NCBI RefSeq assembly: GCF_038618305.1
Contig: NZ_CP152017.1
Location: forward strand, 124,001-188,000
DNA from: Sporosarcina sp. FSL K6-2383
Lineage (GTDB): Bacteria > Bacillota > Bacilli > Bacillales_A > Planococcaceae
DNA: 64,000 nucleotides
Direction of reading: 5' to 3'
The translations under genes and the position numbers were made by a program. Shown here one piece after another: positions 55,447 through 56,741 of the stretch. The notes under the pieces were generated by a model. That model saw nothing but the letters and a program-made list of their open reading frames with translations. It was not told where the DNA came from and did not search any database. Numbering within the stretch: position 1 is the stretch's first letter; every line of letters starts with the position of its first letter.

Positions 55447-55644
55447 ATCAAACTACCTCCCCATTACAATAACTCTATTGTAAGTCTATAAGAGGCTTTG
55501 ACTCAACTCGACAAGTATCTGAATATTTATTCGTCTTTCAGCTATTTTTTGATAAAATAAAAAACCCAATTCAGATATGAAAAGGGTTCAGTCGTACTTA
55601 TTGTAATAAACATGGTTAGGTAAGGTAAAACTAAAAACAGAAAA

Positions 55645-55719
55645 TGGCTGGGGTAGCTGGATTCGAACCAACGAATGACGGAGTCAAAGTCCGTTGCCTT
55701 ACCGCTTGGCTATACCCCA
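55645..55719 (-). tRNA. tRNA-Gln (TTG)
   Basis: The minus strand gives a 75-nt cloverleaf with acceptor TGGGGTA/TACCCCA, D-arm AGCCAAGCGGTAAGGC, anticodon TTG in the loop of ACGGACTTTGACTCCGT, T-arm GGTTCGAATCC, and an encoded CCA end. It is the last tRNA in the transcript direction. Confidence 0.95.
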
Positions 55720-55722
55720 AGA

Positions 55723-55905
55723 TTAAAATTGCGATAAGCTTCGCATTACTGCGTCAGCTTCAATCGTTCAGTCAGTCACGTACTTGAGTACGCTCGCTTG
55801 CACAGGATGTGCTGACTTCGACTTTGCGACAGGATGTCGCGACCTTTGTCGAAGTTCCTTAAAAACTCAATTGCTTCCTTGTTCTGCTTGCTCCTCCCAA
55901 TTTTA
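55723..55905. repeat. tRNA-spacer repeat, copy A
   Basis: This 183-bp spacer is bounded by TTAAAATTG and CAATTTTAA. It shares with copies B and C the segments GCGATAAGC, ACTGCGTCA and CACGTACTT-AGTACGCT. It has an extra internal segment with CGACTTTG/CAAAGGTCG arms that the other copies lack. Confidence 0.75.
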
Positions 55906-55944
55906 ACGGGATTGGCATAAGTTTTCAATTACATTTAAAATAAA

Positions 55945-56029
55945 TGGTGGTGGGGGACGGATTCGAACCGCCGAACCCGGAGGGAGCGGATTTACAGTCC
56001 GCCGCGTTTAGCCACTTCGCTACCCCACC
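55945..56029 (-). tRNA. tRNA-Tyr (GTA)
   Basis: The minus strand gives an 85-nt type II tRNA with acceptor GGTGGGG/CCCCACC, anticodon GTA in GCGGACTGTAAATCCGC, a long variable arm, T-arm GGTTCGAATCC, and an encoded CCA end. Confidence 0.95.
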
Positions 56030-56032
56030 AAG

Positions 56033-56155
56033 TTAAAATTGTGATAAGCTGCGCAATTCTGCGTCAACTTCACTCGTGCGCTCAGTCACGTACTTATGTA
56101 CGCTCCTTCGCTTTCTCGATTGTTTCCTTGCCTTGCTTGCTTCTCCCAATTTTAA
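56033..56155. repeat. tRNA-spacer repeat, copy B
   Basis: This 123-bp spacer runs from TTAAAATTG to CAATTTTAA. It contains TCACGTACTTATGTACGCT, an imperfect small hairpin shared with the other copies, and TTGCTTCTCCCAATTTTAA at the end. Confidence 0.75.
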
Positions 56156-56194
56156 CGGAAGAGTAGATAAGCATTAATACTATTTTTAAAAAAA

Positions 56195-56269
56195 TGGTGA
56201 CCCCTACGGGATTCGAACCCGTGTTACCGCCGTGAAAGGGCGGTGTCTTAACCGCTTGACCAAGGGGCC
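56195..56269 (-). tRNA. tRNA-Glu (TTC)
   Basis: The minus strand gives a 75-nt cloverleaf with acceptor GGCCCCT/AGGGGTC (one G-T pair), anticodon TTC in ACCGCCCTTTCACGGCGGT, T-arm GGTTCGAATCC, and an encoded CCA end. Confidence 0.95.
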
Positions 56270-56273
56270 TCTG

Positions 56274-56367
56274 TTAAAAATTGCGATAAGCGGCGCATTA
56301 CTGCGTCAACTTCACTCGCTCTGTCAGTCACGTACTTAAGTACGCTACTTGCTTCTCCCAATTTTAA
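56274..56367. repeat. tRNA-spacer repeat, copy C
   Basis: This 94-bp spacer is the shortest copy. It shares GCGATAAGC, ACTGCGTCAACTTCACTCG, GTCACGTACTTAAGTACGCT and the ending CTCCCAATTTTAA with copies A and B. Confidence 0.75.
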
Positions 56368-56399
56368 AGGAGATATGTAAGCGAAACAAAAAGTCGCTC

Positions 56400-56475
56400 T
56401 GGAGCTTCCAACCGGATTCGAACCGGTGACCTCTTCCTTACCATGGAAGCACTCTACCTACTGAGCTATGGAAGC
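56400..56475 (-). tRNA. tRNA-Thr (GGT)
   Basis: The minus strand gives a 76-nt cloverleaf with acceptor GCTTCCA/TGGAAGC, D-arm AGCTCAGTAGGTAGAGT, anticodon GGT in CTTCCATGGTAAGGAAG, T-arm GGTTCGAATCC, and an encoded CCA end. Confidence 0.95.
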
Positions 56476-56479
56476 AATA

Positions 56480-56554
56480 TGGCTCCGCAGGTAGGACTCG
56501 AACCTACGACCGATCGGTTAACAGCCGATTGCTCTACCACTGAGCTACTGCGGA
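56480..56554 (-). tRNA. tRNA-Asn (GTT)
   Basis: The minus strand gives a 75-nt cloverleaf with acceptor TCCGCAG/CTGCGGA, anticodon GTT in ATCGGCTGTTAACCGAT, T-arm GGTTCGAGTCC, and an encoded CCA end. It is first in the transcript; the gap to tRNA-Thr is only four bases. Confidence 0.95.
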
Positions 56555-56741
56555 ATAATAACTACTTTTGCGTGCATGTCCTTCATGACAAATTTCATTA
56601 TAGCAAGAATAAATTCTTTTTCAAGGTTTTTCTTAAAAAAGTTTATTCGCGACAGCAACTTTTACATAGTATCACATCTTTTGCATATTAGTCAAATCTG
56701 TTTCATAACTTACAATAGATTGTGCACAAGGGGGACAACAT

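Follow-up and report, generated by a model that had tools for sequence, protein, structure and literature searches.

A palindromic repeat family of Bacilli just before the 5' ends of stable RNA genes, a possible leader domain

Background

The closest described systems are the MITE-like repeats (ERIC, RUP, BOX and Correia/NEMIS), which are short, non-coding, palindromic and multi-copy and form stem-loops when transcribed (PMC10969869, PMC2229807). Correia transcripts are cut by RNase III (PMC10969869, PMC2229807), and the repeats of pneumococci occur between convergent genes more often than expected (PMC3049150). The main texts of the two MITE reviews contain neither the term 'tRNA' nor the term 'rRNA' (PMC10969869, PMC2229807). 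The repeat family described here resembles these elements in the features listed but differs from them in its position, which is mostly a few bases before the 5' ends of stable RNA genes and in the sense orientation. We place it with the MITE-like repeats but do not regard it as a proven MITE.

A second relative is the Bacillaceae-1 RNA (RF01690), which is listed in the motif table of Weinberg et al. (2010; PMC2864571). It is likewise a repeated structured RNA of Bacillaceae; it is nested in one of the three copies analysed here and lies in or beside copies of two relatives. The parent element, a long hairpin that we call the rod, does not match it. A third comparison is with rRNA intervening sequences, which are hairpin inserts in rRNA genes, removed at maturation and located inside the mature rRNA. 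The rod, in contrast, lies just outside the 5' end in all 72 rRNA-side copies (25 fusions to a truncated 5S apart). In the literature searched, no publication on the rod element was found by title or start of abstract.

The tRNA operon and its three repeat copies

The locus is a tRNA operon at 55559-56624 of the window (the entire 64,000-nt stretch of Sporosarcina sp. FSL K6-2383 DNA that was analysed). Five tRNA genes identified with ARAGORN form a minus-strand cluster (55645-56554) with the transcript order Asn-Thr-(C)-Glu-(B)-Tyr-(A)-Gln, where A, B and C are the repeat copies (Table 1). An earlier note on this DNA gave the coordinates, shared ends, boxes and lengths of the copies correctly to within a base or two and placed them beside tRNA 3' ends. 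Since the tRNA genes are on the minus strand, the sides must be reversed: the copies adjoin tRNA 5' ends, at 2-4 nt, and lie 31-38 nt from the 3' end of the preceding tRNA. A role at tRNA 3' ends is accordingly not supported. The consensus scan that provided the promoter-like site gave 12 sites in the tRNA region compared with 2.3 in shuffles; the probable terminator is absent from its output.

Table 1. Features of the tRNA operon, in order of transcription (window coordinates)
Feature	Position	Strand	Basis
Promoter-like site of the tRNA operon, TTGAAA-16-TATAAT	56597..56624	-	Consensus scan, 11/12 letters match
tRNA-Asn(GTT)	56480..56554	-	ARAGORN
tRNA-Thr(GGT)	56400..56475	-	ARAGORN
Element copy C, part of left arm missing; adjoins tRNA-Glu 5' end	56274..56368	-	Model, 49.7 bits
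tRNA-Glu(TTC)	56195..56269	-	ARAGORN
Element copy B, complete; adjoins tRNA-Tyr 5' end	56032..56156	-	Model, 127.7 bits (a self-score, B being one of the six copies in model training)
tRNA-Tyr(GTA)	55945..56029	-	ARAGORN
Element copy A with nested Bacillaceae-1 RNA; adjoins tRNA-Gln 5' end	55723..55906	-	79 bits
Bacillaceae-1 RNA (RF01690) within left arm of copy A	55799..55864	-	64 bits, gathering cut-off 35
tRNA-Gln(TTG)	55645..55719	-	ARAGORN
Probable intrinsic terminator of the operon, GAACCC...GGGTTTTTT	55559..55589	-	By eye and hairpin in fold

Copies A, B and C resemble one another more than chance would allow. The left-end pattern has seven matches in the window at up to three mismatches (1.54 expected), a number that none of 100 shuffles reaches; three of the seven are right ends on the other strand and one lies elsewhere. 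CTGCGTCANCTTCANTCG has four matches in the window, three of them exact, where 0.41 are expected and none of 100 shuffles has as many. CAGTCACGTACTT alone is weaker, with five matches (three exact), and one of 100 shuffles also gives five. Two of these boxes beat every shuffle; chance similarity was set aside, and the earlier note's observation holds.

Folding z-scores were computed for copies B and C. Copy B (125 nt) folds at -37.4 kcal/mol, with a z-score of -5.4 and none of 200 shuffles as good. Copy C, an internally shortened copy, folds weakly (z -1.9; 9/200 shuffles as good) because part of its left arm is missing. Copy A is longer than the others because it contains a nested Bacillaceae-1 RNA. 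Only the inner 66 nt of copy A match RF01690, and no match was found to B, C or the rest of A up to E=1. In the whole genome, at least 67 RF01690 copies score above the cut-off and at least 68 have E<=0.001, with 150 of the 498 candidates scored. Rfam places this RNA within, or fused to, the rod in three genomes (at 55799-55864 of the window, L064 1663-1728 and L065 1730-1797), and a fourth (L118) was recognised by eye.

Structure and covariation of the rod

The parent element is approximately 120 nt long and folds as a long rod: above a basal stem come short helices, interrupted roughly every 4 nt by GA internal loops, and the tip is GCGUAC/GUACGU. It has no match in Rfam 15 (E up to 1 and 0.1 in two scans; gathering scores in others). 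The GA steps are regular: in 120 copies the GA dinucleotide recurs at lags of 4, 8 and 12 at 3.1, 2.64 and 2.25 times expectation (approximately 1 in shuffled copies). The letters of the basal stem vary between sites and complementarity is kept, the basal helix being paired in 94.8-97.4% of alignment cells. Terminal inverted repeats, as in a MITE, are thus present, and the earlier note's proposal that the inverted ends can pair holds, with compensatory changes.

The alignments indicate strong covariation in a mixed set of 46 copies, in tRNA-linked copies alone and in 16S-leader copies alone. Of 33 pairs in the mixed set, 20 have changes on both sides, a count reached by 56 of 500 shuffles, which was not the case for the other measures. 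The tRNA-linked copies (n=18) covary at 15 of 37 pairs compared with 6.3 when shuffled, and the 16S-leader copies (36 rows, 35 distinct; mostly Sporosarcina, with three from Psychrobacillus) at 23 of 40 compared with 16.5. In the true register, 95.2, 95.0 and 93.3% of cells are paired in the mixed, tRNA-linked and 16S sets, as against at most 32.9, 38.8 and 35.3% in slid registers (23-33% for the mixed set) and 79.2% for the shuffled mixed set. Relatedness is kept by the slid control and not by the shuffle control. The tRNA-linked and 16S sets were aligned with plain MAFFT and the mixed set was fitted to the model; for the first two, the structure was taken from individual copies or from a small consensus, a procedure biased towards the true register. 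That the 16S-leader copies keep their fold while their letters change argues for selection on structure.

Position relative to stable RNA genes

We gathered 223 rows (82 + 141), of which 196 are distinct by their core and the 40 nt downstream. The tallies were made by a script and by reading its 'other' list, from which five 23S, two partial 5S and seven tandem cases were moved. The distinct copies are followed by 16S (39), 23S (14), 5S (19) or tRNA (45) genes, and the rest by a 5'-truncated 5S (25), a tandem copy (21), rpsR (4) or something else (29). This last group includes a copy cut by the end of its stretch (L194 7819-7999) and some tandem copies of genome G033. The element is not confined to the spacers between tRNA genes and also lies 5' of 16S, 23S, 5S and rpsR.

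Before intact 16S, 23S, 5S and tRNA genes, 112 of 117 copies leave 2-9 nt between the end of the model and the 5' end, in the sense orientation, which bears out the impression that their placement is not that of ordinary spacer DNA. Four exceptions (43, 44, 45 and 50 nt) have extra letters between rod and tRNA; in the fifth (-18) the model overran a shortened copy. On the rRNA side, the 16S, 23S or 5S starts 2-7 nt after the element in 72/72 cases, counted from what we take, by homology, to be the mature 5' ends. Upstream tRNA 3' ends lie at variable distances of 0-175 nt. Where the flanks are long enough, neither the 250 nt preceding the copies nor the 260 nt following them contain an antisense tRNA. 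The rows are not independent, many being operon copies or from close species, and since copies of this kind also supplied the models and the scan pattern, distant or dispersed members will be under-sampled.

Two other groups of copies were seen. In several genera the rod lies directly before the 3' part of a 5S that lacks its 5' half, often after a complete 5S, and is accompanied by a similar terminator (L131, L135, L136, L139, L141, L215-L218, L228-L232, L245, L092, L116 and, in the genome under study, near 505897, L057). The truncated 5S may be a pseudogene or else a 5S-derived RNA that has been conserved. Another class of rods, dispersed and with GTTCAAAAAGGGG...CCCCTTTTTGAAC-like ends, is found mostly between protein genes (L239-L244, L142, L144, L145, L147, L078, L099, L114, L117); the L099 copy lies 49 nt before a tmRNA gene. 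In G033, rod copies also lie beside a T-box leader sequence, in the opposite orientation to the T-box (L077, where the T-box is an Rfam match, and L107, where it was recognised by eye).

In the Sporosarcina sp. FSL K6-2383 genome itself (3.67 Mb, both strands, E<=1), at least nine copies are present (150 of 508 candidates were scored); six copies of this genome went into the model, so that six of the nine matches are training copies. Besides A, B and C (5' of Gln, Tyr and Glu), two precede tRNA-Val (one after 5S, the other after Glu), one is in a 16S-23S spacer directly before 23S, two are in tandem before rpsR (S18 by Pfam) and one is downstream of 5S at the end of an rRNA operon, with a partial 5S further on. 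Six of the nine end 4-8 nt before a tRNA or 23S 5' end. All nine are beside tRNA, rRNA or rpsR, so that the intergenic dispersal typical of MITEs is absent from the copies found in this genome. The element is absent from all four 16S leaders found here, a search that may have missed further 16S starts.

Distribution, gain and loss

The first model has matches in 22 of 41 genomes: the genome under study, 19 of 24 others of the genus and two of 16 from other families. The remaining five of the 24 have no match to this model. A second model was applied to a sample of the class and found at least 31 of 299 genomes at E<=1e-7, belonging to 22 of the 118 genera and to 14 family codes, a lower bound because filters were strict and 12 candidates were scored per genome; the E-values of the models are approximate. 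Scanning named genomes with a pattern yielded 57 stretches, chiefly from Sporosarcina, Lysinibacillus, Paenisporosarcina and Psychrobacillus. Judged by sequence, A, B and C belong to one palindromic, non-coding repeat family of approximately 120 nt that occurs in several families of Bacilli. A record labelled Arthrobacter beigongshangensis (L194), probably misnamed or contaminated, carries a Sporosarcina-like tRNA cluster 92-94% identical to ours over its three main blocks, and its Thr-Glu spacer contains several tandem element copies.

The copies are dispensable, and they come and go among relatives. Compared by eye, an empty 16S leader of our genome and a filled one of G006 are much alike to either side of the junction, and no target-site duplication is visible, also by eye, at this single pair. 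Homologous tRNA clusters contain full or nearly full copies in G014, G016, G017, G018, G199 and G282, the tRNA-proximal end only in G001, G004 and G023, and short spacers in G229. In G003, G005 and G013 (L267, L271 and L269) the spacers in front of tRNA-Tyr and tRNA-Gln are instead occupied, at the same positions, by repeated hairpins of another, unrelated family. The earlier note looked to close relatives for a decision, with compensatory variation supporting a processing role and unrelated spacers at the same positions counting against it; both are found, since the variation is present and the spacers at these positions may be short, decayed or unrelated.

Among 607 distinct inter-tRNA spacers (370 of them <25 nt), searched for the element ends at up to 4 mismatches in 17, both ends occur in 24, the right end only in 14 and the left end only in seven; 1185 shuffled spacers gave five right-only and four left-only cases. 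On reading, the right-only rows comprise three full copies and 11 remnants (L249 is a long left-truncated copy, and four are at 4 mismatches). The left-only rows comprise five copies that are full or divergent, one with an internal deletion and both tips intact (L266) and one ambiguous Ser-Met spacer at 4 mismatches (L132). By our reading of the 607 spacers, decayed ones retain the tRNA-proximal end and there is no clear solo left end.

Discussion

The family, its covariation, position, orientation, gain and loss are established by comparing sequences, and the copies are probably transcribed. We consider it about an even chance that this palindromic family persists in the 5' leaders of stable RNAs as a self-contained leader domain, removed when the 5' end matures. 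Copies would have reached such leaders and been retained there in the sense orientation, the rod stopping a few bases short of the mature 5' end. The rod would fold during transcription as an independent domain, separate the following tRNA or rRNA from the spacer upstream, and be removed together with the remaining leader in the normal course of 5' maturation, presumably by RNase P in the case of these tRNAs and by the usual Bacillus enzymes in that of rRNAs. A leader domain that first isolates and is then discarded along with the leader is compatible with both selection on structure and free loss; since copies are lost freely, any benefit would be small or local.

A minimum-energy fold of the entire operon transcript, as the earlier note had proposed, calls for caution in reading the rod as a leader domain. 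Copies A and B pair with other parts, Asn and Thr are misfolded and the predicted rods are not separate. This type of calculation ignores folding during transcription.

The leader domain might also be a portable module, an extension that we regard as tentative and rather doubtful. The same RNA domain before 16S, 23S, 5S, many tRNAs and rpsR would mark or protect the 5' end for maturation, whichever enzyme is involved, and would spread among genes of the translation apparatus. Should the element contribute to maturation, a single RNA fold would serve the precursors of both rRNA and tRNA, which are thought to be matured by different enzymes. In a check for a 16S processing stalk, complementary runs of 13 and 10 nt were seen between a 16S leader of our genome and the spacer to 23S in that operon. 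The 23S check gave 9 nt only and is uninformative, since the 3' flank was taken from another operon.

The main rival explanation, which we judge a real possibility, though short of an even one, is that the family is mobile, resembles MITEs and has no host function, and that it either sharply prefers stable-RNA leaders or survives there. As the leader is discarded at maturation, insertion there would be neutral, and a helper enzyme that depends on the fold might account for its conservation. Occupied and empty 16S leaders that are alike beside the junction, tandem and decayed copies, Bacillaceae-1 repeats nested in or fused to tRNA-side copies in three genomes, and the dispersed class with long inverted ends between protein genes all suit this explanation; MITE transcripts elsewhere also form stable stem-loops (PMC10969869). 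It fits less well with a fixed distance to the mature 5' end next to a variable upstream distance, with the structure conserved among 16S-leader copies and with the lack of a visible target-site duplication at the pair compared. Nor do the two enzyme families compared point this way. Over 16 genomes, copy number does not track Y1 transposases (PF01797) or reverse transcriptases (PF00078), and no link to either was seen: our genome has nine copies, no reverse transcriptase match and Y1 matches only with stops, and G299, also with nine copies, has neither. A Y1 transposase accompanying the repeats, as in REPIN/RAYT systems, is lacking at E<=1e-5 in G017 and G299, both of which have copies. We also considered the dispersed copies as right ends of IS605-type elements; there are open frames at seven loci, none of which reads as a transposase by eye.

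A leader domain with a part in processing and a mobile repeat do not exclude each other. If mobility is all there is to the family, the precision with which it selects the 5' ends of stable RNAs would pose a new targeting problem. In either case there is a covariation-supported RNA family, for which no Rfam entry was found, with a regular GA ladder open to direct study.

It is improbable that the element is a transcription signal of stable RNA operons (an attenuator, antiterminator or terminator-like structure). Such a signal could explain the sense orientation beside stable RNAs, the two copies before rpsR and the T-rich stretch in which the dispersed class ends, but there is no T-run directly after the rod in stable-RNA copies (by eye), up to three copies occur inside one tRNA operon, and positions track RNA 5' ends rather than promoters. 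Least probable is that tandem duplication of tRNA plus spacer, an alternative raised in the earlier note, gave the three copies by later divergence: they do share one operon, and the Thr-Glu spacer of the related L194 cluster has several in tandem, but the flanking tRNAs are different genes, the same element is also found at tRNA-Val, 23S and 16S, and relatives have the same tRNA order with spacers that lack the element.
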